Source: Cohnella abietis (lineage in GTDB: Bacteria; Bacillota; Bacilli; Paenibacillales; Paenibacillaceae). Taken from it: a stretch of DNA of 64,000 bases. This document shows, in pieces, positions 29,793 to 64,000 of this stretch. Within the stretch, counting starts at the first letter, position 1. Each line of letters opens with the position of its first letter. Below the pieces are notes generated by a model. The model made no database searches, was not told where the DNA came from, and was given only the letters and a program-made list of their open reading frames with translations. Location of the stretch: assembly GCF_004295585.1 (NCBI RefSeq), contig NZ_AP019400.1:2571501-2635500 (forward strand). Reading direction: 5' to 3'. The translations under genes and the position numbers were made by a program.

Positions 29793-29927
29793 ATGGATGT
29801 GAAACAATTTTTGCATTTAATTCGTTTATTTACCAAGATAGGAAAGAGTGGGTTGGTTAAAACAGCAATCATTCGGTTGATTTTAGTTTCGTAACAACGT
29901 AATTAACTGAACAGGGGATGTTTTGAA

Positions 29928-45450: not shown

Positions 45451-45658
45451 TCTCGAACCCTGGTTACTTATCACTTGGCTTTTCCCAGCCCAATAAGGCT
45501 TTTTGCCGTTTTGGATACCTCATAACCGGAATAAGAACCTCTAATTTGGATCATTTCAACACCTATTACCCTGTATGAGAACTATACGCCGGGAAGTGCA
45601 GCCGCCTATGATTAAGCCACGAGAGGAACACACTATCTAACAGAAGCAGGTGGAGCCA

Positions 45659-46570: not shown

Positions 46571-46585
46571 GGAGGAGTAACACGA

Positions 46586-47482
46586 ATGAAAACGAAAGTC
46601 CGGGAAGATAAGTCCATACTGGAAAAAAGCTTTGTCATCGGCATTTACGTGTTCGTAGGGCTATTCGCCCTCCTATGCATCGTTCCGTTCTGGCTAGTTG
46701 TTATTAATTCGTTCGCTTCGGAGAGCAGCATCAAAATCCATGGTATGCAGCTATTTCCGAAGGAATTCTCATTATATTCCTATCAATATACAATGGCAGG
46801 CAAGCAAATTCTCAGCAGCTACATGGTTACCATTACCGTAACAGTCGTCGGAACTTGCTTGGCCGTACTAATTACGTCTATGTATGCCTATGTGCTAGCC
46901 CACCCTAAAGTGAAATACCGAAACATTTTATCCTTCATGACCTATTTTACGATGGTTTTCGGTGCTGGATTAGTCGGCTTCTATATTCTCATAGCGAACA
47001 CCCTTGGACTGAAGGATACGTTATGGGCGCTAATACTTCCTTATATGTTAAATCCCTTCTTTGCCTTTATTATGGTGTCGTTCTTTCGAACAATGCCTTA
47101 CGAGATTAACGAGGCAGCTACGATTGATGGAGCCAATGACCTGACCATCTTCTTTAGAATTATTTTGCCAATCTCGAAGCCCGTTATTGCCACTGTAAGC
47201 TTGTTCTACGCTCTCCAATACTGGAATGATTTCTATTTGGCGCTCTTGTTCATCGACAATCATAATCTTCACCCACTGCAAATTATGATTCGCCAAATCA
47301 TATCGAACGTTAATATCAGCTCCTATGTCGGAGGTAGTCAAACCTCGTATTCGCAAGCGGTGCCGACATATGGGGTGCAGCTGGCAACAGTATGCTTAAC
47401 GATCGGTCCTATCATTTTCTTATATCCTTTTGTGCAAAAATTTTTCGTCAAGGGGATTACAATTGGAGCGCTAAAAGGTTAG
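46586..47482 (+). CDS. Carbohydrate ABC transporter permease, LplC/YtcP type
   Basis: Second permease of this importer, 298 residues, behind AAGGAGGAG. Typical helices: FVIGIYVFVGLFALLCIVPFWLVVINSFASE, an inner-loop EINEAATIDGANDLTIFFRIILPISKP bearing the EAA motif, and the conserved end QKFFVKGITIGALKG. Its neighbours fix its role as the partner of the LplB-like subunit. It differs from the permease at 1502, so the two importers are separate systems rather than a recent duplication. Confidence 0.93.
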   Translation: MKTKVREDKSILEKSFVIGIYVFVGLFALLCIVPFWLVVINSFASESSIKIHGMQLFPKEFSLYSYQYTMAGKQILSSYMVTITVTVVGTCLAVLITSMYAYVLAHPKVKYRNILSFMTYFTMVFGAGLVGFYILIANTLGLKDTLWALILPYMLNPFFAFIMVSFFRTMPYEINEAATIDGANDLTIFFRIILPISKPVIATVSLFYALQYWNDFYLALLFIDNHNLHPLQIMIRQIISNVNISSYVGGSQTSYSQAVPTYGVQLATVCLTIGPIIFLYPFVQKFFVKGITIGALKG

Positions 47483-47549
47483 GCTTATCCCGGAGATATC
47501 CGGTTGAGCATAGATAACAGATCACAACAATCGGGAGGTTGAAGCAAGG

Positions 47550-49106: not shown

Positions 49107-49132
49107 ACAGCTTTAATTCGAGGGACATCTAC

Positions 49133-49161
49133 AGGGTATTCAGCTTATAGCTGGATACCCT
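49133..49161 (+). other. Intercistronic hairpin after the binding-protein gene
   Basis: AGGGTAT-T-CAGC pairs with GCTG-G-ATACCCT around TTATA. No T-run follows, so it probably stabilises the mRNA 3' end of the binding-protein gene rather than terminating. Confidence 0.6.
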
Positions 49162-49191
49162 CCTTCATACACAAAGAGGTGACACATTCAT

Positions 49192-51240: not shown

Positions 51241-51259
51241 TTTTAGGAGGAGCTAGAGA

Positions 51260-52246
51260 ATGAACCGTCCTTGCACCGCTATTGAAATTCAAGTCAATGG
51301 CATTCAAGCTGTTGTGTTGGAAAATGAATGGCTAAGAGCTGTTATTCTGGTGGGAAAAGGTACTGATATTTGGGAAATCGTCTATAAGCCGCTGAAGCTT
51401 GAATTGTTGATGAAGACAACAGCGGGTTTAGCCGTCTATGAAGGAAGGGACTTTAAGAAGAACAGACTCGCTCATTATGCGGACGGCTATCCAGGAGGCT
51501 GGCAGGAAATTATTCCGAACAGAGCTTCTTTCAGCAGCGGAGAAGTGGGTCAGAGAGAAGAAGGAGAATCGGCTGGCGTCCCCTGGGACTATTCAATTGA
51601 ACAAGGAGACGATCAAAGCGTAACGCTGCGTTGCTCGCTTTCTCTTCCCTATACCCCTCTGACTGTGGAAAAAACGATACGATTGTTGGCGGGAGAGAGT
51701 ACGCTGTTTATTTCGGAACGGATCGTGAATACGGGGATAAACACTGTTCATTTTATATGGACGCATCATCCGGCATTCGGAGGTCCGCTTGTTAATGAGC
51801 AGGCTCAGGTTATTCTCCCTGAGGGTAGTGTAGCGTTTAATATTTTACGTTACGAGGAGGATAGGGAGGGGGCGTTAGTAAGCTTCGAAGAGGAGCCGAC
51901 TTCCGTCCTTCTGCCTAACGGCGATAGGAAAAGCCTGCTTAAGATTGATCCGCGCAAGTCTATCGGGCAATCATGCTACATCCCTCTTAAAGGATTCCAA
52001 GAGGGTGTTGCAGGAATCTATAATCCGAGTTTGAATGTGAAGCTACTGCTTGAATGGGATCACGAGACTTTCCCTTGCCTACGCTATTGGTCCAACAACG
52101 ACGAAGAGATATATACTTTAGCTTTGGAGCCTTCCAGCTCATGGTTCTCGGATATTCACGACTGCATCCGACATGACAATTGTATTTCCTTAAAGCCAAT
52201 GGAAGAAAAACGACTATGGATCAACCTCCGTGTGGAGCAGTCTTAG
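51260..52246 (+). CDS. Aldose-1-epimerase-like (DUF4432) protein
   Basis: Galactose-mutarotase-fold protein of 328 residues. The mutarotase-like segments are WEIVYKPLKLELLMKT, FIWTHHPAFGGPL (metal/sugar-binding His pair), and a late PSSSWFSD. It fits the DUF4432/COG2017 side branch, which has fewer than the full catalytic set, so the exact activity (mutarotase or sugar binding/epimerase) is uncertain. It follows the GH42 gene by 20 nt behind AGGAGGAG, so it would convert the beta-galactose released there. A GntR regulator gene and another operon start downstream. Confidence 0.75.
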   Translation: MNRPCTAIEIQVNGIQAVVLENEWLRAVILVGKGTDIWEIVYKPLKLELLMKTTAGLAVYEGRDFKKNRLAHYADGYPGGWQEIIPNRASFSSGEVGQREEGESAGVPWDYSIEQGDDQSVTLRCSLSLPYTPLTVEKTIRLLAGESTLFISERIVNTGINTVHFIWTHHPAFGGPLVNEQAQVILPEGSVAFNILRYEEDREGALVSFEEEPTSVLLPNGDRKSLLKIDPRKSIGQSCYIPLKGFQEGVAGIYNPSLNVKLLLEWDHETFPCLRYWSNNDEEIYTLALEPSSSWFSDIHDCIRHDNCISLKPMEEKRLWINLRVEQS

Positions 52247-52366: not shown

Positions 52367-52388
52367 ATGTAATGACATTATGACGTTG
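52367..52388 (+). promoter_or_regulatory. GntR-type operator, copy 1 (before the gntR-like gene)
   Basis: ATGTAATGACAT at 52367-52378, extended by TATGACGTTG. The core TAATGACATTA is palindromic. The same 12-mer stands at 53205 and 57135, and a variant at 62649. Points to autoregulation by the GntR protein. Confidence 0.75.
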
Positions 52389-52420: not shown

Positions 52421-53173
52421 ATGACCGACCTGTTTAGCAAAACGTTAAACAAAGAGGTTCCAATTCCGTATTATTACCAGCTTAAGGAGATTTTGCTGGA
52501 CTATATAAAGAATCATCATGAAGGCCGGGATCGTCCGATTCCAACGGAAGTGGAAATTAGTGCACATTTTAATATAAGCAGGCCGACCGTACGTCAAGCG
52601 ATCAATGAACTCGTTGTTGAAGGCTATCTTATCCGCCAGAAGGGTAAGGGCACGTTCGTTACGAAGCCGAAGATCAGCCAGGCATTCTTGCAGGTGCTTG
52701 ACAGCTTTAATAACGAGATGATTAAGAAGGGGCTTGAGCCTTCGACTAAGATTCTTGGTTTGGAAGTTGTCGAGTGCGATGAGAAGACGGGCGAAGCATT
52801 AGGAATTCCGATGGGCAGTCGAACAATTCAATTGAGACGCCTTCGTTTTGCTAATGGAGAACCTATCGTCTATGTCGTCACTTATCTACCGTATGACCGC
52901 TGTCATCCGATACTAGACAAGAATCTCGAGTACGAGTCACTGTATGAAATATTACGACAGGTTTGTGGTCTTTCCCTACTGAAGGCCGTTCGTAATCTTG
53001 AAGCGGTGCTGGCGAACGAATACGAAGCCAAAATATTGGAGATAGATAAAGGTGCTCCAATTCAGTACATCAAAAGTGTCACTTATTTGGCCGATGAATC
53101 ACCGATAGAATACTCTCTAGCCAAATATCGTGGGGATAGAAGTCAATTCACGTTCGAGCTTGGAATCAGGTGA
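52421..53173 (+). CDS. GntR/HutC family regulator with UTRA domain
   Basis: Repressor of 250 residues. The GntR winged helix is ISAHFNISRPTVRQAINELVVEGYLIRQKGKGTFVTKP; the C-terminal UTRA ligand domain begins at LQVLDSFNNEMIKKGLEPSTKILGLEVVE. Ligands of this branch are sugars or phosphorylated sugars. It is the natural controller of the cluster, because its own promoter and three others carry the operator ATGTAATGACAT-like word. Start ATG 52421 behind AAAGGGGA. Transcribed in the same direction as the cluster, ahead of the GH105 operon. Confidence 0.92.
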   Translation: MTDLFSKTLNKEVPIPYYYQLKEILLDYIKNHHEGRDRPIPTEVEISAHFNISRPTVRQAINELVVEGYLIRQKGKGTFVTKPKISQAFLQVLDSFNNEMIKKGLEPSTKILGLEVVECDEKTGEALGIPMGSRTIQLRRLRFANGEPIVYVVTYLPYDRCHPILDKNLEYESLYEILRQVCGLSLLKAVRNLEAVLANEYEAKILEIDKGAPIQYIKSVTYLADESPIEYSLAKYRGDRSQFTFELGIR

Positions 53174-53204: not shown

Positions 53205-53228
53205 ATGTAATGACATAATAACGTATTA
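53205..53228 (+). promoter_or_regulatory. GntR-type operator, copy 2 (before GH105 operon)
   Basis: ATGTAATGACAT at 53205-53216 followed by AATAACGTATTAC, close to a T-rich stretch. The same 12-mer as copies 1 and 3. Confidence 0.75.
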
Positions 53229-53253: not shown

Positions 53254-54192
53254 ATGAAAAATAAAGTTGAAACTGTAAAACGTGCTATGTTGGGGATGCA
53301 GAGGCAATCTTGGGAGCAAGGAGTTGCTGCCCAGGCTTTAATAGAAAGCGGATACACGGAGGATGCGATCTTGTTGGCGCATGATGCCGTAGTTCGTCAG
53401 GATGAATCTGGTCGCCTTGGCGTTACGGGTGATGAGAAAGCGGTTACGGATGCTGCTTCGAATGGAGAGCCTGTACTCTTCGCTTGGCAGCAAACGGGAG
53501 ATCAGCAATACAAGCTCGCTGCCGACAAAATGGCAAATTATTTGCTTCATATCGCTCCGCGAACGGAGAACGGAGCATTGTCACATGTGAATCATCTTAG
53601 TCAGGTTTGGGTAGATTCTTTTTACATGGCACCGCCGTTTTTAGCAGTAGCTGGGCATCCTGAAGAAGCAGTTGCACAAGTTGAACGATTCCGCGAGCTA
53701 TTGTTGATTAAAGAGAAGGGTATGCACGGACATATCTGGAACGATGGTGAAAAACGATTTGACCGAGCAGATTGCTGGGGAGTAGGAAATGGATGGGCTG
53801 CAGCTGGTTTAGTAAGAGTGATTCGCACTCTTCCTGAGTCAATGAACGCAGATAAGGAACGCTTTATCGGCTATCTGCGCGATCTACTGGATTCCTGCTT
53901 GCGTTATCAGCGAGAGGATGGACTGTTTCACGATGTTCTTGACCGCCCGGATACATTCGTTGAGACGAATGCTGCGCAAATGTTCGCTTATTCGATCTAT
54001 TCAGCAGTTAAAGCAGGCTGGTTGGATGCAAGCTATTTGAGCAGTGCGGATCGAATGAGAAAAGCGGTGCAGGATAAAGTTGATGATTATGGATTCGTTA
54101 GAGGTGTATGTGGATCACCGATGTTTGATAGATCTGGAACGGCAACGGAAGGTCAGGCCTTTTACTTGCTGATGGAAGCGGTTGCTCATTAA
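53254..54192 (+). CDS. Glycoside hydrolase family 105-like unsaturated uronyl hydrolase
   Basis: Enzyme of 312 residues with an (alpha/alpha)6-type barrel. It contains WVDSFYMAPPFLA, the catalytic Asp121 region of YteR-like enzymes, and the late WGVGNGWAAAGLVRVI motif (WARGNGW in relatives). GH105 hydrolases remove unsaturated uronic acid from rhamnogalacturonan or similar oligosaccharides left by lyases, by adding water across the double bond. This copy is shorter than YteR (about 373 residues), lacking some C-terminal or loop segments, so a different substrate is possible. Start ATG 53254; the ribosome site GCAGGATGG is weak. The PfkB gene follows after 33 nt. Confidence 0.82.
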   Translation: MKNKVETVKRAMLGMQRQSWEQGVAAQALIESGYTEDAILLAHDAVVRQDESGRLGVTGDEKAVTDAASNGEPVLFAWQQTGDQQYKLAADKMANYLLHIAPRTENGALSHVNHLSQVWVDSFYMAPPFLAVAGHPEEAVAQVERFRELLLIKEKGMHGHIWNDGEKRFDRADCWGVGNGWAAAGLVRVIRTLPESMNADKERFIGYLRDLLDSCLRYQREDGLFHDVLDRPDTFVETNAAQMFAYSIYSAVKAGWLDASYLSSADRMRKAVQDKVDDYGFVRGVCGSPMFDRSGTATEGQAFYLLMEAVAH

Positions 54193-54225
54193 TTGCAATA
54201 GAACGATGCAGAGGGGGACAAAGGG

Positions 54226-55209
54226 ATGAGCCCTGAAATTCTTTGTTTGGGAGAATTACTAATCGATTTCGTATCGGTTGATGCAGATAAGTCTTTAGCT
54301 GATTCCAGCGGATTTGCCAAAGCGCCAGGCGGCGCGCCTGCCAATGTAGCGGCTGGGCTATCGAGGCTGGGAAGAAAATCCGGTTTTATCGGCAAGGTTG
54401 GAAGAGACCCGTTCGGTGAATACTTAAAGCAAGTGCTAGAGGATGTTGGAATTGACGTCAGTGGTATGAGCTTCGATGAAGAGGCTCGCACAACGCTATC
54501 CTTCGTAGCTAACCGTTCTGATGGAGTAAGAGATTGCATGTTCTACAGAAATCCCGGCGCTGATATGAGGCTTACTCCGGAGGATTTGGATGAATCCATG
54601 TTTGCCAACGCAAAGGTATTTCATTTTGGCTCAATTAGTCTCGGATGTGAGCCAGTTCGCACCGCGACAATGCAAGCGCTTGAGTGGGCTAAACGTCATG
54701 GTTTGTTAGTGTCTTACGATCCTAATCTTAGACTGAGCCTGTGGAATGATGAAGAACTAGCAAAGCAGGAAATTCGAGCAGCATTCCGCTACGCCGATGT
54801 TGTGAAGATAAGCGAGGAAGAGATGGAATTCGTCACAGGAGCCCATACTCTCGAAGAAAGCGCTTCCTATATATTGAATCAAGGTCCGAAGCTAGTCGTT
54901 ATTACTAAGGGCGGAGACGGTTGCTTCTATACAGATGGACATACTAGCGGTAGCTTTGAAGGACATCAGATGAATGTAGTAGAAACGACAGGAGCAGGAG
55001 ACGCTTTTGTTGCGGGACTACTTACACGATTGTTGGAGCGAAGAGATCGCCTAGGTCGATTCGAGCTAGCAGTAGATGAGGAAACGATTGCAGCAATCAA
55101 GTTTGCCAACGCGGCCGGCGCACTAGCAACTACACGAGTCGGAGCGATTCCTGCTATGCCGACGCCTGATGAGGTGCAGACGCTACTTGGAGAGGAGATC
55201 GTACGATGA
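54226..55209 (+). CDS. PfkB family sugar kinase (fructokinase-like)
   Basis: Ribokinase-fold kinase of 327 residues. The N-terminal signature is PGGAPANVAAGLSRLGRKSGFIGKVGRDPFG; the C-terminal signature ETTGAGDAFVAGLL contains the catalytic base Asp259. Substrate could be fructose or a 2-keto-3-deoxy-sugar acid, both common for this fold; fructokinase-type wording is nearer. It phosphorylates the sugar from the GH105 step or its isomerisation product. ATG 54226 follows GAGGGGGA. Stop overlaps the next start by 4 nt. Confidence 0.88.
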   Translation: MSPEILCLGELLIDFVSVDADKSLADSSGFAKAPGGAPANVAAGLSRLGRKSGFIGKVGRDPFGEYLKQVLEDVGIDVSGMSFDEEARTTLSFVANRSDGVRDCMFYRNPGADMRLTPEDLDESMFANAKVFHFGSISLGCEPVRTATMQALEWAKRHGLLVSYDPNLRLSLWNDEELAKQEIRAAFRYADVVKISEEEMEFVTGAHTLEESASYILNQGPKLVVITKGGDGCFYTDGHTSGSFEGHQMNVVETTGAGDAFVAGLLTRLLERRDRLGRFELAVDEETIAAIKFANAAGALATTRVGAIPAMPTPDEVQTLLGEEIVR

Positions 55210-56039
55210 GACTTGGAGGTTATGTCAAATCGGCTTTCGACGGACCTGAGCAATGGGCGAACGAGGTTCTCCGTCACGGTTACCGGGCAACACCATGTCC
55301 CATTGATTATAAGGCAGACGATGCAACGGTTACAGCCTATAAAGAAATAGCACAACGCTCCGACATCGTAATCTCTGAGGTGGGAGCGTGGGGTAACCCG
55401 ATCAGTCCAGATGCTTCCTTACGCGCTACTGCGATCGAGTTTGCACAGAAGCAGCTGGAGCTGGCTGATCGGATAGAAGCCCGAGTATGTGTCAATATTA
55501 CTGGCTCCAAAAGCGCGCAGTGGGATGGACCACACTCAGATAACTTTACGGACGATACATTCGCACTCATTGTCGATTCTATTAGAGAGATTATTGATGC
55601 TGTGAAGCCTACTCGCACATTTTATGCTTTGGAAACGATGCCTTGGGCATTTCCAGATTCGGCGGATTCTTATTTACAGCTTCTGAGTGCCGTTGATCGG
55701 CCCCAGCTTGCCGTTCACTTTGATCCCGTCAATATGATTAGCTCACCACGTGTTCTTTATCGTAATGGACATATGATTCGGGATTTTATCGCTAAGCTCG
55801 GGCCTCATATTCGGAATTGCCATGCTAAGGATATCTCAATAGGTAGTAAGCTGACGGTTCATTTAGAGGAAACATTACCTGGGACGGGGCAGCTTGATTA
55901 TGTCACCTTTTTAACTGAGCTGAGTCGACTTGATCCTGATCTTCCACTGCTTATAGAGCATCTGGACCGAGAGGAAGATTATTTACAGGCGTTCTCTTAC
56001 ATTAAAGGAACTGCTGTGGAGCTTGGAATACCTTGCTGA
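55206..56039 (+). CDS. Sugar phosphate isomerase/epimerase, TIM-barrel family
   Basis: Xylose-isomerase-like TIM barrel of 277 residues. Metal-binding residues are suggested by the Glu in FYALETMPWAFPDSADS, the Asp-Pro in LAVHFDPVNMI, the His in IRNCHAKDI, and the Glu in LPLLIEHLDREEDYLQAF. It begins MRLGGYVKSAFDGPEQW, whose opening resembles the hydroxypyruvate-isomerase/tagatose-epimerase side of the superfamily. Its overlap with the kinase suggests that its product or substrate is the same sugar. Reaction not assigned. Confidence 0.82.
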   Translation: MRLGGYVKSAFDGPEQWANEVLRHGYRATPCPIDYKADDATVTAYKEIAQRSDIVISEVGAWGNPISPDASLRATAIEFAQKQLELADRIEARVCVNITGSKSAQWDGPHSDNFTDDTFALIVDSIREIIDAVKPTRTFYALETMPWAFPDSADSYLQLLSAVDRPQLAVHFDPVNMISSPRVLYRNGHMIRDFIAKLGPHIRNCHAKDISIGSKLTVHLEETLPGTGQLDYVTFLTELSRLDPDLPLLIEHLDREEDYLQAFSYIKGTAVELGIPC

Positions 56040-56052
56040 GAGGAGAAGCCCA

Positions 56053-57123
56053 ATGACAAACGGCGAGAACATAAGACTTGGATTCGTTGGAGCGGGAACG
56101 ATGGGATTACTCCATATGGAAACGTTCGGACGAATTACTGGTGTAGAAATGAAAGCGGTAGCAGACGTGTCAGCCATTCGTGCACAGGCAGCAGCAACTG
56201 ATTATGGTTTGGAGAGAGCGTATACAGATAGTTTAGAGCTCATTGAGGCTCCGGATATAGATGCCATAGTCATTAGTGTACCGAACGCTTTCCATGCAGA
56301 GCTTGCTTGCTCTGCTCTCCGTGCCGGTAAACACGTGCTTCTTGAAAAACCGATGGCTATGAATGCAGAAGAAGCTCGTCAAGTTCTTCATGCGGAGAAA
56401 GAGTCTGGCAAGACACTCATGATCGGGCATCAAATGCGCTGGAAATGGCCATTCCCGGAGGTGAAGCGTCAGATTGCTGAAGGTAAGCTCGGTCAGATTT
56501 ACTACGTGAAGACGGGCTGGCTGCGGCGAAAAGGAATTCCTGGTTGGGGATCTGCTTATACCTCACAGGCAATGATGGGCGGAGGAAGCGCAGTTGATAT
56601 TGGTGTTCATATGCTTGATATAGCCCTTTATCTATGTAGCTCAAGTAAGCCAGTCGGCGTGTATGGCGCATCTTTCGGTGAGATCGGCAAGCAGCGTAAA
56701 GGAATGGGAACGTGGGGAATTCCGAATCTTGCAGGAAAATTCGACGTAGACGATTTGGCTGTGGCGATGATTCGAATGGAAGACGGTGCGGTGATTCATC
56801 TAGAGGTTAGTTGGGCAGCGTTCACTGACGGAGAAGAGAATGGACCTTATGTTCACCTGATGGGGAACCAAGGCGGTGTATCTATCCGAGACAGCGGAAG
56901 CCACTGGATGACTGAATGCTTCGATGATTCGGTCGATATACCGGTAGCAGGCGCAGAGGAGCGTGGAGACGAACGGCTAAATCTTGCTGAACATTTTCTA
57001 CACTGTGTGCGTACGGGTTCAACCCCGATAACGGATGGAAGAAGCGGATTCGTTAACCAAACGATAATAGATGCCTTGTATCTGTCTTCGAAAACCGGCA
57101 AAGAAGTACAATTGGAGCTTTAA
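56053..57123 (+). CDS. Gfo/Idh/MocA family oxidoreductase
   Basis: NAD(P)-dependent sugar dehydrogenase-like protein of 356 residues. Rossmann motif LGFVGAGTMGLLHMETF; the conserved Lys in HVLLEKPMAMN; a C-terminal half with GGGSAVDIGVHMLDIALYL, including the His used in catalysis. Typical members oxidise C3 of sugars or inositols, or hydrolyse by redox chemistry. Start ATG 56053 follows GAGAGGAG; a longer frame from 56023 overlaps the preceding gene. Ends the first GntR-controlled transcript; the binding protein operon follows behind the next operator. Confidence 0.9.
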   Translation: MTNGENIRLGFVGAGTMGLLHMETFGRITGVEMKAVADVSAIRAQAAATDYGLERAYTDSLELIEAPDIDAIVISVPNAFHAELACSALRAGKHVLLEKPMAMNAEEARQVLHAEKESGKTLMIGHQMRWKWPFPEVKRQIAEGKLGQIYYVKTGWLRRKGIPGWGSAYTSQAMMGGGSAVDIGVHMLDIALYLCSSSKPVGVYGASFGEIGKQRKGMGTWGIPNLAGKFDVDDLAVAMIRMEDGAVIHLEVSWAAFTDGEENGPYVHLMGNQGGVSIRDSGSHWMTECFDDSVDIPVAGAEERGDERLNLAEHFLHCVRTGSTPITDGRSGFVNQTIIDALYLSSKTGKEVQLEL

Positions 57124-57134
57124 TCACCTTAACA

Positions 57135-57155
57135 ATGTAATGACATACTTACGTG
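57135..57155 (+). promoter_or_regulatory. GntR-type operator, copy 3 (before importer operon)
   Basis: ATGTAATGACAT at 57135-57146 then ACTTACGTG. Identical 12-mer to copies 1 and 2; about 130 nt before the binding-protein gene. Confidence 0.75.
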
Positions 57156-57280
57156 ATTAATGATAATAATTACTGGGAAAATAGTAAAACCTATTTAAGG
57201 AGGTGGTCCGGCCAGATCGGGTTTGAACGGATGAAGAAGTGCAAACTAAAACGCAGTTACCATTTTCAGGAGGGGTTCAC

Positions 57281-58624
57281 TTGAAAACAAAAAACGCAGG
57301 AACGAAGTTTATGGCACTTATTTTGACTTTTTCGATCATCTTGGCAGGATGCGGAGGCAACAAAAACAACTCTGCGAGTGAGAGTCCATCAGCTAGCCCG
57401 TCCGGCAGTCCTACTGCTTCTTCTGGCGGAGAGAAATCACCGGCGGATTACAAAGGCGAAGTTACGTTCTGGGCATGGGGCGACTACGAAAGCAAGCTCA
57501 TTCCTGAGTTCAACAAAGAATATCCGAATATCAAAGTTAACGTAGTTGTTGTTCCTAATGCTGACTACGGCAAAAAGCTACAAACGACAATCGCTTCGAA
57601 GGGTAATATGCCGGACGTTGTTTTGTTCGAAAGCAGCGTACGTGGTCAATTCCTAACGCTTGATGCTTGGGAAAACCTCGAAAAGGCACCTTACAACGTT
57701 AACCGTGCGGACATCGTTGATTTCGCAATTCCACTCAACGAGAATGAAAAAGGCGAGATCGTAACGCTTCAGGAAGATGCAACAATGGCGGGAATTGCGT
57801 ACAAGCGCGATCTTGCTAAAGAATATTTTGGCACAGACGATCCAGATGAAATCGAAAAGATGTTTACTTCATGGGACGATTTCATTGCAAAAGGTAAAGA
57901 GGTTTATGCAAAAAGCGGCGGTAAAGTTACATTGATGGATGGCATTTTGGAAGGCGGTTTCAAGCTTGTCAGCGGTGAGTACACTGAGCCGTTCGTTAAA
58001 GACGGTAAGCTAAATCTCGAATCCACATTCCTTCCAACGTACAAAACGCTTGAAAAAATGGTTGCAAACAACACTGTAGGTAAATACGAAACTTGGTCCG
58101 CTCCTTGGAATGCGAGCTTCTCGAGCAACACTGTTATTTTCTACGCGTGCCCTACTTGGTTTGTTCCGTTCGGTATCAAGCCTAACGACAAGAACGGAAC
58201 GGGTAACTATGGTCTTATCCGCGCTCCAATTGGCGGCTACTCATGGGGTGGAACGAGCATGTCCATTCCGAAGGAAGCGAAGAACAAGGAATTGGCTTGG
58301 CAGTTCGTTAAATGGGTAACGTTGTCTGAAAGCGGAGCTACTGCATTCAAAAACTTAAACAATACAGCTACTCTGTACAAACCAGTATTTGAGCGTGAAG
58401 GCTTCTACACAGACAAAGATCCATACTTCGGTGGTCAGGACATTATGGCTAAGTTCACTCAGCTAGGTAAAGAAGCTAAAGTTCGTCCGATTACGAAATA
58501 CGATGACGCCATCCTCTCCTCTAACACAGTTGTTATGAAGATGATGATGCAAGGAGCATCAGCTGAGAAAGCCTATGATGCACTCGTTAAGGATGTTCTG
58601 AAAAAAGCACCTGAACTGAAATAG
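57281..58624 (+). CDS. CUT1-type extracellular sugar-binding lipoprotein
   Basis: Family-1 binding protein of 447 residues. Signal peptide with lipobox LAGC (FSIILAGCGGN), then a Ser/Pro/Gly linker and YKGEVTFWAWGDYESKLIPEFNKEYPNIKVNVVV, the MalE-like opening. Later PIGGYSWGGTSMSIPKEAKNKELAWQFVKW is the family's hinge segment. The frame is open from 57239, but AGGAGGGG stands ahead of TTG 57281, giving the correct signal peptide. It delivers the cluster's sugar to the two permeases that follow. Its shorter length than the 47550 and 2497 proteins indicates a mono- or disaccharide-size ligand, by inference. Confidence 0.92.
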   Translation: MKTKNAGTKFMALILTFSIILAGCGGNKNNSASESPSASPSGSPTASSGGEKSPADYKGEVTFWAWGDYESKLIPEFNKEYPNIKVNVVVVPNADYGKKLQTTIASKGNMPDVVLFESSVRGQFLTLDAWENLEKAPYNVNRADIVDFAIPLNENEKGEIVTLQEDATMAGIAYKRDLAKEYFGTDDPDEIEKMFTSWDDFIAKGKEVYAKSGGKVTLMDGILEGGFKLVSGEYTEPFVKDGKLNLESTFLPTYKTLEKMVANNTVGKYETWSAPWNASFSSNTVIFYACPTWFVPFGIKPNDKNGTGNYGLIRAPIGGYSWGGTSMSIPKEAKNKELAWQFVKWVTLSESGATAFKNLNNTATLYKPVFEREGFYTDKDPYFGGQDIMAKFTQLGKEAKVRPITKYDDAILSSNTVVMKMMMQGASAEKAYDALVKDVLKKAPELK

Positions 58625-58643
58625 TCATTAAAGAGCAAGTGAT

Positions 58644-58670
58644 CGCGGTGAGGCGCAAGCCTCTCCCGCG
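58644..58670 (+). other. Intercistronic hairpin after the binding-protein gene
   Basis: CGCGG-TGAGGC pairs with GCCTC-TCCCGCG around GCAA. No T-run; likely mRNA stabiliser ensuring more binding protein than permease. Confidence 0.65.
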
Positions 58671-58715
58671 TTCATCTTGTGAAAGCTAAGCGGATAGAGA
58701 AAGCAGGTGAGTTTG

Positions 58716-59633
58716 ATGAATTCTTTGACAAAGGCGCGCAAAGCGCAACGGTGGGCGCCCTATTTTTTTGTTTCTCCTTTTTTTCTGATCTTCGGGCTTT
58801 TTTCGTTGTTTCCCATTTTGTTTACTCTTTATATCAGCTTGACCGATTGGAGCTTAAACGGAGCGTCTAATTTCATCGGCTTCGGTAACTATGCGGAAGT
58901 ACTACAGGACAGCCGGTTCTACGACGCGCTGCTCAACACAGTTATATTCATGATTATGATCATTCCTCCCCAAATCATTATTGCCTTGTTTATCAGCGTA
59001 TTGCTGACTAGTGGCAAAGTGCCATTCGTGGGAGCCTTCAGGCTAATCAACTTCTTGCCGTATATTACGACTTCAGTAGCAGTTGGACTCATCTTTGGTA
59101 TCCTGTTCGACTGGAATTTTGGTACCGTTAATACACTGCTCCAAAATCTCGGCGTCTCACAGGAGAAGATCAACTGGCTTGGCCAACCGGGACCAGCTCG
59201 AATTGTTGTTAGCTTGGTGACGGTATGGAAATATTTTGGCTACACAGCTGTTATGTTTCTAGTAGGGATTACGGGTATCAGCCGCCAGCTTTACGAGGCA
59301 TCTGATCTAGACGGCGCGACCAAGATACAGCAATTCCGCTACATTACATTGCCAATGCTTCGTCCCGTTATGTTATTCGTCGTCATGACGACAATGATCG
59401 GGTGCTTCCAAATTTTCGACGAGCCTTACATGCTGTTTACAGGAATGGGAAGCTCACTCATTGGTGGTCCAGAGGGCTCTGCCTTGACCGGAACTTGGCT
59501 CATTTATGATAATGTATTTGGTAGCTTATCACGGTTTGGTTATGGATCTGCTATTGCGTACGTACTCTTTCTCTTTATATGTATGGTATCGTTCGTAACG
59601 TTCAGAATGATGAATAAGGGGGAGGAAGAATGA
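58716..59633 (+). CDS. CUT1-type sugar ABC permease, MalF-like
   Basis: Permease of 305 residues with six or more helices. It opens with APYFFVSPFFLIFGLFSLFPILFTLYISLTDW, typical of MalF-like proteins. The ATPase-contact loop is LYEASDLDGATKIQQFRYITLPMLRP. GTG 58707 overlaps the ribosome site AGGTGAG, so ATG 58716 is the more likely start. Next to the binding protein, with overlapping partner gene. No ATPase in sight; a shared MsmX/MsmK-type ATPase is expected elsewhere. Confidence 0.9.
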   Translation: MNSLTKARKAQRWAPYFFVSPFFLIFGLFSLFPILFTLYISLTDWSLNGASNFIGFGNYAEVLQDSRFYDALLNTVIFMIMIIPPQIIIALFISVLLTSGKVPFVGAFRLINFLPYITTSVAVGLIFGILFDWNFGTVNTLLQNLGVSQEKINWLGQPGPARIVVSLVTVWKYFGYTAVMFLVGITGISRQLYEASDLDGATKIQQFRYITLPMLRPVMLFVVMTTMIGCFQIFDEPYMLFTGMGSSLIGGPEGSALTGTWLIYDNVFGSLSRFGYGSAIAYVLFLFICMVSFVTFRMMNKGEEE

Positions 59634-60460
59634 GAAGCATCAGAAGAATGACCCCCGGATCGTGGATAGGCTTGCTCGTTATGCTCGTCATTTCCATCAT
59701 GGCTTTCTATCCGTTTTATTCGATGTTAATTATGAGCACCTATCAATCCAATGATCTGTACACAAGTATTAAGCTGCTTCCCGGCAACTATCTGGGTGAA
59801 AACTTTAAGACATTATTTTCAATAGATTTTCTGGCTTACTATAAAAACAGTATAATTGTAGCGATATCTACGACAGTACTGGGCGTGTTGGTTAGCGCTG
59901 CTGCTGGGTTTGCCTTCGGTAAGTACAAATTTCGATTTAAAAATGTACTGTTCGTAAGCGTCTTGTTGACCATGATGATTCCGATGCAATTCGGTATTGT
60001 GGCATTCGTTATTGAGATGCGGTGGTTTGGCTGGCTAGATACGCTGCTTCCACTCATCATTCCTCCTGCAGCTAACGCTTTCGGTGTCTTCTGGATGACG
60101 CAATTTGCCAGAAGTACGATTCCCGATGAAGTTATGGAGAGCGCCAGAATCGACGGTTGCGGTGAAACTAGCATTTTCTTCAAGATCGTGCTTCCGTTTC
60201 TGCGTCCTGCATTCATCACACTTGGTCTTCTGTTTTTCCTTTGGTCATGGAACAGCTTCTTCGTACCGCTGATCGTCCTGAGCACGGATTCACTTTATAC
60301 GATTCCGCTCGGTATTCGTGGGCTGGCTGGACAATTCCGTGCCGATAGCGCTGCACAGATTCTAGGTCTTACTATTGGAACAATTCCAGTACTCGTTTTC
60401 TTCGCTATTTTTTCTAAAAACTTGATTGAAGGGCTTGCTTCGTCCGCGGTAAAAGGTTAA
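59630..60460 (+). CDS. CUT1-type sugar ABC permease, MalG-like
   Basis: Partner permease, 276 residues, ATGA-overlapped with the MalF-like gene. Helices: LLVMLVISIMAFYPFYSMLIMSTYQSNDLY and others. The EAA loop is MESARIDGCGETSIFFKIVLPFLRPA, in which Cys replaces the usual Ala of the Gly-Ala pair. Ends in EGLASSAVKG. Completes the importer controlled by operator copy 3. Confidence 0.92.
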   Translation: MRSIRRMTPGSWIGLLVMLVISIMAFYPFYSMLIMSTYQSNDLYTSIKLLPGNYLGENFKTLFSIDFLAYYKNSIIVAISTTVLGVLVSAAAGFAFGKYKFRFKNVLFVSVLLTMMIPMQFGIVAFVIEMRWFGWLDTLLPLIIPPAANAFGVFWMTQFARSTIPDEVMESARIDGCGETSIFFKIVLPFLRPAFITLGLLFFLWSWNSFFVPLIVLSTDSLYTIPLGIRGLAGQFRADSAAQILGLTIGTIPVLVFFAIFSKNLIEGLASSAVKG

Positions 60461-60504
60461 TTGATCAGTCGCGAACACGAACAGGCCGCCAAGGAGGCCG
60501 CACC

Positions 60505-61551
60505 ATGAAAAGTCTTGTCACGGATGGCAAGGGCGGGCTAGACGTCGTTGAAGTAACCCGTCCTGCCTACAATGAATATCAGGCTCTCGTGAAGATGGAA
60601 AGCTGCGGTTTATGCCGTGGAACTGACACGAAGCTTATCCAAGGCAAGTTCAAAGGCTTCGATTCGTATCCGGCCATACTTGGTCACGAAGGAGTCGGTC
60701 GGGTCGTCGAGGTAGGAAACGCCGTCAAAAGCTTCAAAATCGGAGACTTGGTGCTGCTGCCTTTCGTTGAAGGAATGACAGAAGAGAAGTACCACTCCGG
60801 CTGGGGCGCATTCTCGGAGTACGCCGTCGTGGGCGATGCACAGGCACTGATTGCAGACGATAAAGGGCCGGGGAATTCTCTTTTCTCCGAGGCTTATTAT
60901 GCGCAACAGATTGTTCCGGATGATATTCCGGTAGTCGATGCTGCAATGATTGTTACATTCCGGGAGGTCCTCGCCGCTTGCCGCAGGTTCGGTTTTCAAG
61001 CAGGAGAGAGTATCGTTATTTTCGGAGCCGGACCGGTAGGACTTACCTTCGCGAAATTCGCTAAGCTGCTAGGGATGGCCCCTGTTGTTGTTTCCGTCAA
61101 TCGCGACGAGAAGCTCCAGGAGGCGCTTGATGCGGGTGCTGATTATGCTTTCAATAGTCGCAAAACGGACATTGTGAGTGAAGTTCGCAAGCTTTTTCCA
61201 AATGGAGTCGATTACGCGGTTGATGCGATTGGAGCGAATGAGGTTCTTGCCCAATCCATGAAGCTAGTGCGCAATGACGGTAAAATCTGCTGCTACGGAG
61301 TATCCTCTGAGCTGAAAATGGAGCTCGACTGGAGCAAAGCCGCCTATAACTGGTCACTACATTTCCTGCAATGGCCATCTAAGCTCGAAGAATCACAATG
61401 TCATGATCAGATCATTTCATGGATTCGTTCCGGAGAGCTAGTCCCAGCTGACTATATCTCTGATGTGCTGGATTTTTCCGATATCGGAGGCCTTGGCGAC
61501 TACTTAGAAAAAGGTCGAATTAACAAAAAAATGATAATCCGTTTTGGATAA
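60505..61551 (+). CDS. Zinc-dependent alcohol/polyol dehydrogenase
   Basis: Medium-chain dehydrogenase of 348 residues. Zinc and structural signatures: ESCGLCRGTDTKLIQG (Cys ligand), then LGHEGVGRVVEVG with His-Glu. It lacks the four-Cys structural zinc lobe, as sorbitol-type members may. The NAD fold is GAGPVGLTFAKFAKLLGM. It would oxidise a sugar or sugar-derived polyol. Start ATG 60505 behind CAAGGAGGC. It sits between the importer and a SMP-30 lactonase-like gene, so dehydrogenase then lactonase is a sensible order of steps. Confidence 0.9.
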   Translation: MKSLVTDGKGGLDVVEVTRPAYNEYQALVKMESCGLCRGTDTKLIQGKFKGFDSYPAILGHEGVGRVVEVGNAVKSFKIGDLVLLPFVEGMTEEKYHSGWGAFSEYAVVGDAQALIADDKGPGNSLFSEAYYAQQIVPDDIPVVDAAMIVTFREVLAACRRFGFQAGESIVIFGAGPVGLTFAKFAKLLGMAPVVVSVNRDEKLQEALDAGADYAFNSRKTDIVSEVRKLFPNGVDYAVDAIGANEVLAQSMKLVRNDGKICCYGVSSELKMELDWSKAAYNWSLHFLQWPSKLEESQCHDQIISWIRSGELVPADYISDVLDFSDIGGLGDYLEKGRINKKMIIRFG

Positions 61552-61569
61552 AAAAGGGGTATATTTCAT

Positions 61570-62571
61570 ATGATAACACCACAATTGTTCGCTAAATTGC
61601 CTGAGGATATTGCAGTTACCCCCGATGCTTTTGCAATCGATTCTCAAGGCCGTCTAATTCTGTCTTGTCCTAACTACGCAGATCCAACAAAGCAGGGCTG
61701 TCTGCTTCGGTTCAAAGAAGATCGGGTTCCCGTGAAATGGGCAGACGTTCCTCTTCACCCCGAAACAGGAAAAGCTCATCCAATGGGTATCGCTTTCGGT
61801 CCTGATGGTGACTTGTACGTCTGTGATAATCAAGGCTGGTCTGGAGCGCCTGAGCTTATGTTCAAAGGACGAATCCTGCGTCTTCGTATCAACGAGGAAG
61901 GCGAAGTTGTCCGCACGACGGTTGTAGCCTCTGATATGGAGCATCCAAACGGAATTCGAATTAGAGATGGCTATTTGTACGTGACTCAGAGCCTACTAAC
62001 TAAAGTTCAGGATCCAAGCGGGCTGCTCGTAAGCTGCGTCTACAAATTCGCTTTGGATGATGAGGATATTGTCGTTACAAATACGTTAGAGGATCCTAAC
62101 ATCTGGACAACATTCCTTACGCACAAGCTGGATTGCCAGTATGGAGCAGACGGTATCGTTTTTGATAAAGCCGGAGTCCTTTACGTTGGTAATTTCGGTG
62201 ATGGAGCTATTCATCGTATTGTCTCTAACGAGGACGGCACTGTACGCAGCAATGAGGTTTGGGCGCAGGATCAGGCTCAGCTTCAAAGCACGGACGGCAT
62301 GATTTTCGATGAAGCTGGCAATCTGTACATTGCTGATTTCTCAGCTAACGCTATTGGTACGGTTACGCCCGATGGTAAAGTATCCCGCCTGGCACAAAGC
62401 CCTGATACAGATGGTCTGAACGGAGAGCTTGATCAACCTGGTGAGCCGGTTGTATGGAATGGCATACTTGTTGTCTCATGCTTCAACTTAGTTACAGGAC
62501 CGGACAAAGTGAATACGAAGCATGAGCTTCCAGCTACGCTGTCCTTCTTGGATCTGTCGAAATTAGCATAG
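61570..62571 (+). CDS. SMP-30/gluconolactonase-like protein
   Basis: Six-bladed beta-propeller of 333 residues. Repeated blade motifs GDLYVCDNQGW, GYLYVTQSLL, GVLYVGNFGDGAIHRI and GNLYIADFSANAIG define the SMP-30/LRE family. Calcium-binding acidic residues recur in these blades. Such enzymes hydrolyse sugar lactones formed by an upstream dehydrogenase, here probably the neighbouring zinc enzyme. Start ATG 61570; ribosome site AAAAGGGG. No signal peptide, so cytoplasmic. The operon seems to end here: a hairpin and operator copy 4 follow. Confidence 0.88.
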   Translation: MITPQLFAKLPEDIAVTPDAFAIDSQGRLILSCPNYADPTKQGCLLRFKEDRVPVKWADVPLHPETGKAHPMGIAFGPDGDLYVCDNQGWSGAPELMFKGRILRLRINEEGEVVRTTVVASDMEHPNGIRIRDGYLYVTQSLLTKVQDPSGLLVSCVYKFALDDEDIVVTNTLEDPNIWTTFLTHKLDCQYGADGIVFDKAGVLYVGNFGDGAIHRIVSNEDGTVRSNEVWAQDQAQLQSTDGMIFDEAGNLYIADFSANAIGTVTPDGKVSRLAQSPDTDGLNGELDQPGEPVVWNGILVVSCFNLVTGPDKVNTKHELPATLSFLDLSKLA

Positions 62572-62590
62572 ACGCTAGGCTACGATTTTT

Positions 62591-62637
62591 ACGAAGAACG
62601 GCGACTCGCCAGGTGCGAGAAAACGTTTGTTCTTCGT
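62591..62637 (+). other. Hairpin between lactonase and dehydrogenase genes
   Basis: ACGAAGAAC (62591-62599) pairs with GTTCTTCGT (62629-62637); GGCGA-C-TCGCC is an inner hairpin directly after the left arm. No T-run, so weak terminator or regulatory stem beside operator copy 4. Confidence 0.55.
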
Positions 62638-62648
62638 ATTACATCCAT

Positions 62649-62670
62649 ATGTCATGACAAATTGACATTA
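62649..62670 (+). promoter_or_regulatory. GntR-type operator, copy 4 (before the hydroxyacid dehydrogenase)
   Basis: ATGTCATGACAA at 62649-62660 with TTGACATTA after it; inside, GTCATGAC is a perfect palindrome. It differs from the other copies at two of the 12 core positions, so it may be the weakest or a variant site. Confidence 0.6.
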
Positions 62671-62696
62671 GGACTGATTTGGAAGGTGGAAGTAAC

Positions 62697-63650
62697 ATGA
62701 ATAAAGTGCTCATAACTCCGAAATCTTATCATTATTACAAAGATAAAGCTTTTGAAATGCTGCGCGCCAAAGGGTATGAGCCGATTGAAAACCAAACTGG
62801 TCGCACACTGACCGAGGATGAAATCATCGAGCTTGCCAAGGAAGGCGTCGTTGGCGTCATTGTTGGAGTCGATCCGATGCCTGCACGTGTACTCGAGCAG
62901 CTGAAGGATGTACGGGCTGTCTCGAAATATGGAATGGGTGTCGACAATATTGACACTGGGCGTGCGGGTGAGCTTGGCATTCAGGTCCGGGCTGCGCAAG
63001 GAACGAACAATGTATCAGTTGCAGAGCTGGCAATCGGACTTATTTTCGCTGCATCGCGTCATTTACCAGCTATGAGTGCGAAGGTTAAGCAAGGAAGCTG
63101 GGATCGTATTCTAGGTCGGGAGCTCACAGGTAAAACTGTAGGGATTGTCGGCGGTGGTCAAATCGGCTTTGAGGTTGCTAAGCGGGCGCGCGGATTGGAG
63201 ATGGACGTGTCTGTGTATGACCCGTTCCTGAAGGATGATGCGTTCGCGGATCAGCCGGGCATTCGACTCGTTCGTGACTTAGATGCCTTATTCGCTAGCT
63301 CAGATTACATTTCACTTCACGTACCCGCAGTACCGGACACTTACCATCTGATTAATGCTCGGACTCTTGCTCTTATGAAGCCTTCCGCCATACTCATTAA
63401 TACTTCGCGTGGGGAGCTTATCGATGAGGAAGCACTATATGATGCTCTTGTAGATGGCAAGCTTTCTGGGGCGGCAGTTGATGTTTTCTCCAGTGAGCCT
63501 CCGCAGCCGGGTAATAAGCTCGTCGCTTTGGATCAATTTATTTTAACCTCCCATACGGGTGCGTTTACTTATGAAGCTATAGAGAAAATGGTCCTACGTT
63601 CGACGATCAACCTGCTCGATATGCTAGAGCAAAGTGAAGCGTTGGCTTAA
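62697..63650 (+). CDS. D-2-hydroxyacid dehydrogenase (phosphoglycerate-dehydrogenase type)
   Basis: NAD-dependent enzyme of 317 residues. Cofactor motif TVGIVGGGQIGFEVAKRA; catalytic Arg and Glu in NTSRGELIDEEAL; catalytic His in ILTSHTGAFTYEA. The N-terminal substrate lobe contains VSKYGMGVDNIDTGRA, typical of the phosphoglycerate/hydroxypyruvate group. A frame from 62679 is longer, but GGAAGGTGG precedes ATG 62697. It reduces a 2-keto acid, or oxidises a 2-hydroxy acid, derived from the cluster's sugar. Controlled by operator copy 4; the shikimate-dehydrogenase-like gene follows after 27 nt. Confidence 0.9.
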   Translation: MNKVLITPKSYHYYKDKAFEMLRAKGYEPIENQTGRTLTEDEIIELAKEGVVGVIVGVDPMPARVLEQLKDVRAVSKYGMGVDNIDTGRAGELGIQVRAAQGTNNVSVAELAIGLIFAASRHLPAMSAKVKQGSWDRILGRELTGKTVGIVGGGQIGFEVAKRARGLEMDVSVYDPFLKDDAFADQPGIRLVRDLDALFASSDYISLHVPAVPDTYHLINARTLALMKPSAILINTSRGELIDEEALYDALVDGKLSGAAVDVFSSEPPQPGNKLVALDQFILTSHTGAFTYEAIEKMVLRSTINLLDMLEQSEALA

Positions 63651-63677
63651 CGACCGAACCAAAGGAGAGATTCTCAT

Positions 63678-64000
63678 ATGATTTTACCTAACAAAGCGAC
63701 CCGCCCGACGATGTATTTCATTGGCGTGACGACGGGAAAATCGTCCATTATGAAGCTATTTCCAGAATGGGCGACAATCCTTGGACTCGAAGGTGCAGAA
63801 ATTAAAGGAATAGATATTGGCATTCATGCCGATCCCGAGGAATACCGCAAAGTTGTTGAGTTCATCCGGGACGATGAGCTGTCCATGGGTGCGCTAGTAA
63901 CTACGCATAAAATTGATTTGTATGACGCTGCCAAGGATTTGTTCGATGAGCTAGATCCTTACGCGACTATGTTCGGAGAGCTTTCCTCCATCTCGAAGGA
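63678..64000 (+). CDS. Shikimate dehydrogenase-like protein (3' end outside window)
   Basis: N-terminal 107 residues only. They match the substrate-binding domain of the shikimate/quinate dehydrogenase superfamily: YFIGVTTGKSSIMKLFPEW, then GALVTTHKIDLYD. The latter corresponds to the G..VT.P.K loop with the catalytic Lys78; here Thr-His replaces the usual Pro, so substrate preference may differ from shikimate. ATG 63678 has AAAGGAGAG ahead. Being co-directional with sugar-acid enzymes, it may act on a cyclic polyol or a branched keto acid rather than in aromatic synthesis. Confidence 0.78.
   Translation, partial: MILPNKATRPTMYFIGVTTGKSSIMKLFPEWATILGLEGAEIKGIDIGIHADPEEYRKVVEFIRDDELSMGALVTTHKIDLYDAAKDLFDELDPYATMFGELSSISK

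Follow-up and report, generated by a model that had tools for sequence, protein, structure and literature searches.

The stretch of DNA analysed here, called the window below, covers 64,000 nucleotides of the Cohnella abietis genome (positions 2571501-2635500 of the single contig of 7.06 Mb). From position 52421 across its right-hand edge it carries one catabolic operon, which is controlled by a regulator of the GntR family. The core enzymes of this operon, among them an AroE-like dehydrogenase and a cupin-type phosphoglucose isomerase (PGI), recur in very different bacteria and may form a so far undescribed route for an unusual, probably 3-deoxy sugar.

Genes and operators of the locus

The genes were called by a search for open reading frames (ORFs) combined with Pfam, while the two permeases were identified by ORF and orthologues only. 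All operon genes in the window lie on the + strand, and every gene listed in the first-pass annotation, which was made from the sequence alone, was found again. The first gene, situated just outside the cluster as that annotation had delimited it, codes for a GntR-UTRA transcriptional regulator of the HutC type (52421..53173; PF00392, PF07702). It is followed by a hydrolase of the GH88/GH105 family (53254..54192; PF07470, 155 bits), a PfkB kinase (54226..55209; PF00294), a xylose-isomerase-like TIM barrel (55206..56039; PF01261) and a Gfo/Idh/MocA dehydrogenase (56023..57123; PF01408). An importer of the CUT1 type consists of an extracellular sugar-binding protein (57239..58624; PF01547) and two permeases (58707..59633 and 59630..60460), whose orthologues in the related loci L035, L036 and L038 are 66-85% and 69-86% identical, respectively. 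The next genes code for a zinc-dependent medium-chain dehydrogenase (ZnB, 60505..61551; PF00107, PF08240), a β-propeller of the SMP-30/lactonase group, which is proposed to be a lactonase (61570..62571; PF08450), and a D-2-hydroxyacid dehydrogenase of the phosphoglycerate dehydrogenase type (62679..63650; PF02826). The gene of the AroE-like dehydrogenase starts at 63678, is cut by the window end at 64000 and extends to the window-equivalent position 64619. The cluster thus runs beyond the window, and with it the missing steps, as had been expected: the rest of the AroE-like gene is followed by the cupin PGI (window-equivalent 64643-65233; PF06560) and by an aldo-keto reductase (AKR), which begins at window-equivalent 65253 and the end of which falls within a stretch of N.

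The near-palindrome TAATGTAATGACATTA precedes gntR; its core ATGTAATGACAT is found again in front of both the GH105 gene and the importer genes. The exact 12-bp operator is found three times in the whole genome, always on the + strand before genes of this cluster: upstream of gntR (site 1, 52367..52378), upstream of the GH105-like gene (site 2, 53205..53216) and upstream of the transporter genes (site 3, 57135..57146). The control pattern, which is ATGTAATGACAT read backwards, occurs once in the genome. This dedicated operator supports the control by GntR that had been proposed. In L035, L036 and L038 the motif was seen by eye before gntR and before the GH105 gene, either exact or changed at one position. 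By the same inspection it precedes the importer in two of these loci, L036 and L038, but was seen neither before the importer in L035 nor in L037. Because the gene order recurs in relatives and the exact operator is confined genome-wide to this place, the cluster is more than a chance arrangement.

A degenerate operator-like site with two mismatches (site 4, ATGTCATGACAA, 62649..62660, + strand) precedes the hydroxyacid dehydrogenase gene. Alone it is not above chance, since the window has 10 two-mismatch copies against 6.1 expected, a number that 10 of 100 shuffles also attain. Between the propeller and hydroxyacid dehydrogenase genes, the interval 62571-62679 contains this weak copy and, by eye, repeat-like sequence; it is perhaps an internal promoter or attenuator.

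No gene for KduI, KduD, 2-keto-3-deoxygluconate (KDG) kinase or 2-keto-3-deoxy-6-phosphogluconate (KDPG) aldolase is located within the operon, in agreement with the earlier statement that the cluster does not match the classical uronate pathway. Reading downstream gave the same picture, as no Kdu or KDPG genes come immediately after the operon. The next stretch begins with an ORF on the other strand that we read as a small spore protein gene, and then has genes for a Y-family polymerase and an M15-type peptidase. These are followed by a separate transcription unit at window-equivalent 71929-74268. It has its own regulator, of the GntR-FCD type, together with a KDG-kinase-like gene and a KDPG aldolase gene 8.6-10.3 kb past the window end, the aldolase at 9.6 kb. 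This unit has no exact operator copy and by that measure stands outside the regulon of the operon. The one KduI gene of the genome (C1:2760703) lies about 125 kb beyond the window end.

A second sugar cluster is located just upstream of the operon at 45650-52246. It consists of two permeases, a binding protein, a DUF4432 protein and a 682-residue protein that in our judgement resembles a GH42-type β-galactosidase; the exact operator does not occur in it. At 29273-29756 (9.5 copies) and 44547-45447 (17.7 copies) there are two tandem arrays, both with a repeat length of 51 bp but with different unit sequences. The first overlaps an ORF of 174 residues (29292-29816, - strand), and the second contains long open frames in both directions. 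A search of 42-64 kb with Rfam gave no match at gathering scores.

Recurrence of the gene set in other bacteria

An orthologue of the AroE-like protein (E-value 3e-93 or better) is present in 23 of 295 genomes of the family, that of C. abietis included. The remaining listed matches in these genomes have E-values of 8e-12 or weaker and presumably are ordinary AroE. The neighbourhoods were fetched for the 22 relatives among Paenibacillaceae that carry the orthologue. The full order GntR-GH105-PfkB-TIM-Gfo-SBP-P1-P2-ZnDH-SGL-D2H-AroE-CUP-AKR, where SBP, P1 and P2 are the importer genes, ZnDH the zinc dehydrogenase, SGL the propeller, D2H the hydroxyacid dehydrogenase and CUP the cupin, is found in two of them, L035 and L036. 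The same order without TIM and Gfo is present in L038, and GH105-PfkB-ZnDH-SGL-D2H-AroE-CUP-AKR is retained in L039-L041. In L043 the order is retained from PfkB onward, and a GH105 gene of this clade is also present in that genome, in locus L078; L037 retains GntR-PfkB-D2H-AroE-CUP-AKR. The surroundings differ in the other 14 relatives. The TIM barrel and a close Gfo orthologue occupy their window place only in L035 and L036. Because both are missing from the orders of the other relatives, they are regarded as accessory and lineage-specific.

For a wider set, genome contigs were scanned with an alignment of the family, and the best 80 of at least 579 relatives were analysed. According to the titles of their records they come from Firmicutes, Alphaproteobacteria (Rhizobiales), Planctomycetes and Atribacterota. 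The ORFs of the 80 loci were clustered, and the clusters were mostly named by a Pfam/NCBIfam scan of one representative each; the remaining names rest on similarity to window proteins or on our own reading. ORF clusters that we regarded as shadow frames, and likewise ORFs containing at least 20 X, were left out of the neighbourhood drawings. It is important to note that the 80 loci are not independent observations, since they are ranked by similarity, include related genomes and share 12 genomes with the 22 loci of the family.

The AroE-like enzyme is present in all 80 loci, the hydroxyacid dehydrogenase in 69 and the cupin in 66. A sugar kinase is found in 59 (FGGY kinase in 53, PfkB in six others), a protein of the PTE family in 50, KDPG aldolase in 42 and zinc dehydrogenases in 42 and 20. 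Less frequent are the main Gfo cluster (20), SMP-30 (15), GH105 (7) and a protein of the metallo-β-lactamase (MBL) type (7). At least one lactonase-type protein, from three unrelated families, occurs in 62 of the loci. Counted in contiguous operons on the same strand, the cupin is found in 64 loci, the hydroxyacid dehydrogenase in 63, PTE in 45 and KDPG aldolase in 41. Relatives of the window GntR regulator, 28-83% identical over the aligned part, are encoded in 29.

The AroE-like gene is also carried by 15 plasmid records, eight of which annotate it as shikimate dehydrogenase; its plasmid companions are annotated as phosphoglycerate dehydrogenase and glucose-6-phosphate isomerase. Four alphaproteobacterial plasmids of the 15 were viewed, and all four have the order cupin PGI - eda - AroE-like - D2H - MBL. 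A regulator gene (annotated as SIS domain protein or transcriptional regulator) follows MBL, and an FGGY kinase gene, annotated as two pieces in the Marinovum plasmid, is nearby. In a Clostridia metagenome-assembled genome, the gene after the AroE-like one (L075:11159-14578) codes for a fusion of an [FeFe]-hydrogenase with a pyridine-nucleotide oxidoreductase, and an 88% identical fusion protein is found at the same place in L081. This suggests a sink for surplus NAD(P)H, as expected for a route with two oxidations.

The linkage of the AroE-like enzyme with the cupin was tested independently of the AroE search. Of 119 genomes of the order, eight (C. abietis included) have a PF06560 cupin above 100 bits and three further genomes have weaker cupins only. 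These 11 cupin genomes and nine cupin-free genomes were searched with the AroE-like profile at an E-value of 1e-10. All eight strong cupin genes are located less than 200 bp from a match of the AroE-like family, while no such match was found at this threshold in the 12 compared genomes without a strong cupin. This linkage of 8/8 versus 0/12 leads us to regard the isomerase and the AroE-like enzyme as partners, and very probably they work together.

Two further observations concern single loci. An aldolase annotated as deoC is part of the same gene run in Sinorhizobium meliloti Ak57 (L143:12636-13382), and a DeoC-family protein is also encoded in L131. In Lactonifactor longoviformis the region directly upstream of the AroE-like gene (L125:6651-9862) codes for a glycyl-radical enzyme, which belongs to the PFL2/glycerol dehydratase class, and for its activase. 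The catalytic motif of glycyl-radical dehydratases is C-x-E. This motif was looked for in the L125 enzyme and not found, its Cys being placed within YGCNDP. Such an enzyme occurs in one of the 80 loci, and for both reasons it was set aside as support for a deoxysugar.

Catalytic residues and possible substrates of the enzymes

The AroE-like protein has no Pfam match at 1e-3 and is well below the curated AroE cut-offs, with a best NCBIfam score of 55 bits versus 413. Its predicted model (pLDDT 92) nevertheless has the fold of shikimate dehydrogenase (SDH), with a Z-score of 27.5 to the structure 3tnl, and the family is 15-22% identical to its fold matches. The catalytic residues Lys78 and Asp118 are kept in 81 of 81 sequences. 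An NR motif, which we take to be of the NADP type, has Asn in 76 and Arg in 79 of the 81. The shikimate carboxylate is bound in AroE by a Ser-x-Ser site; the N-terminal region of the present family mostly reads VTTGQSS or VTTGKSS, a stretch that can be related to this site only tentatively.

The Z-score of the same model to 5-ketofructose reductase is 26.4, close to the best value for a shikimate dehydrogenase. The AroE-like enzyme might then be a reductase of a ketosugar or ketosugar phosphate, and its step would be reductive. According to PMC7954740, both SDH-related and AKR-type 5-ketofructose reductases are known, and genes of both kinds are present in the window operon. However, such a function leaves the pairing with PGI, the lactonase-type proteins, the KDPG aldolase and the hydrogenase of L075 and L081 unexplained. 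In addition, a putative shikimate dehydrogenase of Clostridium pasteurianum is described in the same source as inactive on 5-ketofructose. We consider the reductase function rather improbable.

The cupin aligns with archaeal phosphoglucose isomerase from residue 12 to residue 195 of 196 (E-value 3e-57). Its residues His95, His97, Glu104 and His143, presumably the metal site, are kept in at least 93% of an 83-sequence alignment. The same proportion of an 83-sequence alignment retains Arg244, Glu273 and His292 of the hydroxyacid dehydrogenase. This enzyme is nearest to phosphoglycerate dehydrogenases (best PDB match 1wwk), and its relatives include hydroxypyruvate/glyoxylate reductases. Among PDB sequences the window PfkB kinase matches a fructokinase best (187 bits), and its NCBIfam fructokinase score is 261 bits, below the cut-off of 450. 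The FGGY kinase representative is nearest to xylulose and gluconate kinases.

The propeller matches PF08450 with 44 bits (cut-off 26.3), and its predicted model (pLDDT 89.8) gives Z-scores of 28.6 to Drp35 and to RPA3624. For the PTE representative the nearest sequence is 3pnz, which we take to be a phosphorylated sugar lactonase, and the NCBIfam phospho-furanose lactonase score is 150 bits of a 630-bit cut-off. The one PTE gene of the C. abietis genome was not counted, since its product shares no more than about 29% identity with the cluster PTEs and the gene stands beside other amidohydrolase-like ORFs. One cluster aldolase, from a homologous locus, is above the curated cut-offs of the KDPG/KHG subfamily. 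The cupin PGI, the fructokinase-like kinase, the relative of a phospho-sugar lactonase and the KDPG aldolase make phosphorylated hexoses the most likely intermediates. They thus point away from the sugar acid or cyclic polyol that the first-pass annotation had suggested, while its idea of an oxidative route remains probable in view of the lactonase-type protein and the hydroxyacid dehydrogenase.

We also compared a route for a cyclitol (inositol-like), similar to that of Thermotoga with IolG and IolM. These two models are the best NCBIfam matches of the Gfo and zinc dehydrogenases, and the scores rise to 290 of 355 bits for Gfo in one homologous locus and to 201 of 450 bits for the zinc dehydrogenase in another. 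However, all scores are under the curated cut-offs, and the window proteins reach only 128 of 355 bits (Gfo) and 95.5 of 450 bits (zinc dehydrogenase). Moreover, no more than 20 of the 80 loci have the main Gfo cluster. The cyclitol route was rejected on account of these scores; its probability is the slightest of all the readings compared here.

The GH105-like hydrolase bears on the nature of the substrate. Its catalytic residues Asp66, His111, Asp121 and His160 correspond to Asp88, His132, Asp143 and His189 of YteR. Two basic positions of the pocket are replaced. Val177 is located at the position of YteR Arg213 and is Val in all 14 rows of the clade alignment (12 distinct proteins), and Val112 is located at the position of Lys133, where the clade has Val in 12 rows and Leu and Met in one each. 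The other GH105 proteins in the alignments (n=4) retain Arg at the Arg213 position, which is treated here as the counterpart of Arg200 of CA_C0359. In PMC4528949, YteR Lys133 and CA_C0359 Arg200 are described as pocket residues, and the positive charge of the pocket is linked to a negative substrate end. The replacements in the clade suggest that the enzyme is likely to act on a neutral substrate, as far as the sequence can tell.

The loss of the two basic residues also argues against a pectin route. In a divergent route of this type, GH105 would release an unsaturated uronate that unorthodox enzymes process, consistent with the membership in GH88/GH105 and with the KDG-kinase-like and KDPG aldolase genes past the window end. 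However, Val, Leu or Met has taken the place of the basic residues, the kinase/aldolase unit comes with a separate regulator and lacks the exact operator, and KduI is far away. We regard the divergent route as highly improbable, if marginally less so than the cyclitol route. The classical pectin route was rejected because of the operon without Kdu genes, the lost basic residues and the kinase/aldolase unit without an exact operator copy.

A possible route without a dehydratase

Taken together, the gene families, the conserved residues, the linkage and the operators allow us to propose, tentatively, that the operon serves the breakdown of an unusual neutral sugar, in which a 3-deoxyhexulose is converted to pyruvate and glyceraldehyde 3-phosphate with no dehydratase. 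The substrate, the order of the steps and the reactions of the AroE-like enzyme and of the propeller are inferred from these observations. The importer would take up a glycoside, from which the GH105-like hydrolase, the accessory dehydrogenases and the reductase would produce a free ketohexose. The entry compound of the core could be a 3-deoxyhexulose of the 3-deoxyfructose type, derived for example from 3-deoxyglucosone. The fructokinase-like PfkB kinase, replaced by an FGGY kinase in most homologous loci, would act as a 3-deoxyhexulose 6-kinase and form the ketohexose 6-phosphate, which the cupin PGI would convert to the aldohexose 6-phosphate. The AroE-like enzyme could then oxidise C1 with NADP to the 6-phospho-lactone. 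This would be opened to the aldonate 6-phosphate by a lactonase, the SMP-30-like propeller here and a protein of the PTE or metallo-β-lactamase type elsewhere. Oxidation of C2 by the 2-hydroxyacid dehydrogenase would give the 2-keto acid, and a KDPG-type aldolase, in trans here and inside the operon in about half of the homologous loci, would cleave it to pyruvate and glyceraldehyde 3-phosphate. Each core enzyme would fit one step, and the core chain would have no gaps.

The conversion of a normal aldonate 6-phosphate to KDPG requires a dehydratase. Since the oxidation of C2 can replace this enzyme only if C3 carries no oxygen, a 3-deoxy sugar is proposed; the argument is a chemical one. A single blastp query from the C. 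abietis genome found no ILVD/EDD-like ORF in the 80 and 22 loci, although KDPG aldolase is encoded in 42 of the 80. Of the 22 genomes with KDPG-aldolase loci chosen for an Edd check, 21 were covered (21 of the 42 such loci), and only four of these, all alphaproteobacteria, have a match over the Edd cut-off. Of 116 operon ORFs assigned to no family, 102 were of suitable length and 73 were scanned with Pfam (the first 25 of 79 families were viewed). Among the 40 of these 73 that come from KDPG-aldolase loci no dehydratase family was found at 1e-8, unless the one glycyl-radical enzyme is counted as such.

Several observations weigh against the proposed route. The operon has no KDPG aldolase of its own and relies on one in trans. 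All 46 genomes tested have this aldolase, whether or not they carry the module, so that its association with the module within the family is uninformative. Relatives of IlvD/Edd below the Edd cut-off occur in all 21 genomes checked; the C. abietis genome has five such weaker relatives and no gene over the cut-off. A divergent Edd could be hidden among them. The Marinovum plasmid has an IlvD/Edd gene in the vicinity, which adjoins a TRAP transporter and is on the opposite strand. The converse of the cupin linkage is looser, no cupin being shown in 4 of the 22 Paenibacillaceae loci and, within the available stretch, in 14 of the 80 AroE-like loci. Within the available stretch, 18 of the 80 loci have no lactonase-type protein and 21 have no kinase. 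PTE and SMP-30 are found together in 10 loci, with PTE far downstream in L066 and L068, and hence are not simple substitutes. The nearest fold matches of the propeller are two Diels-Alderases (Z 29.6-30.4), and its identity to the fold matches is 14-20%. NagB is encoded in nine of the 80 loci, L-fucose isomerase in five, and a TIM barrel of the psicose-3-epimerase type, with one scanned representative above the curated cut-off, in 17. Since a 3-deoxy sugar would offer nothing to an epimerase of C3, some members of the family may use ordinary hexoses.

The last point leads to the alternative that the whole core acts on an ordinary, that is not 3-deoxy, unusual hexose, with a dehydration, if there is any, performed by an enzyme encoded elsewhere. 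The hydroxyacid dehydrogenase would then make a 2-keto-aldonate 6-phosphate, or reduce hydroxypyruvate or glyoxylate after an aldol cleavage. The epimerase-type and L-fucose isomerase genes, the sub-cut-off IlvD/Edd genes and the hydroxypyruvate/glyoxylate reductases among the relatives of this dehydrogenase all fit such a function. However, it does not account for the contrast between the missing ILVD/EDD-like ORFs and the frequent KDPG aldolase, nor for the few KDPG-aldolase genomes that pass the Edd cut-off. We consider the ordinary hexose unlikely, though more plausible than a ketosugar reductase.

The preferred route for a 3-deoxyhexulose can be extended to include the hydrolase. Its core would be a widespread "deoxy-Entner-Doudoroff" pathway to KDPG, to which the window operon would add a GH105-like enzyme hydrating a 4,5-unsaturated neutral glycoside. 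The GH105 product would be a 4-deoxy-5-ketohexose. After reduction of its aldehyde and numbering from the other end, this would be a 3-deoxy-2-ketohexose, with which the core begins. This combined version is doubtful, being only a little more probable than the ordinary hexose.

If the proposed route is correct, it would be a new layout of the phosphorylated sugar-acid routes, in which the lactone and KDPG chemistry is the same and an oxidation replaces the dehydration. It would give a function to the AroE-like family, with its at least 579 relatives, and to the companions now annotated as phosphoglycerate dehydrogenase and glucose-6-phosphate isomerase. For bacteria of soil, plants and the gut it would mean a way to use 3-deoxy sugars, for instance 3-deoxyglucosone, which arises from sugar degradation. 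A literature search by title and abstract, covering few subscription papers, found no description of this gene set, which is weak evidence of novelty, and no bacterial gene cluster for 3-deoxy sugars such as 3-deoxyglucosone.

Comparison with known systems

The hydrolase belongs to the same family as YteR, an unsaturated rhamnogalacturonyl hydrolase of GH105, and has the same catalytic residues, but differs from it in having Val instead of Arg213 and Lys133. The cupin is similar to the phosphoglucose isomerases of Pyrococcus and Thermococcus over nearly the full length, including the conserved residues of the metal site. However, here it adjoins an AroE-like dehydrogenase in all eight strong cases of one order. 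The AroE-like enzyme in turn has its fold, the catalytic Lys and Asp and the presumed NADP-type motif in common with shikimate/quinate dehydrogenases and 5-ketofructose reductase, but its low identity to them and the missing Pfam AroE match mark it as a separate family.

The Pseudomonas kgu operon for 2-ketogluconate combines a PfkB kinase, a TIM barrel and a 2-hydroxyacid dehydrogenase, as is the case here. To our knowledge, however, it includes no isomerase, AroE-like enzyme or lactonase, and its dehydrogenase works as a reductase. The Entner-Doudoroff pathway leads from hexose 6-phosphate over 6-phosphogluconolactone, 6-phosphogluconate and KDPG to pyruvate and glyceraldehyde 3-phosphate. 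The proposed route would have in common with it a hexose phosphate, a lactone, a lactonase step and an aldolase of the KDPG type. The isomerase, the dehydrogenase and the lactonases are nevertheless from other families, and a 2-hydroxyacid dehydrogenase would stand in the place of the Edd dehydratase.

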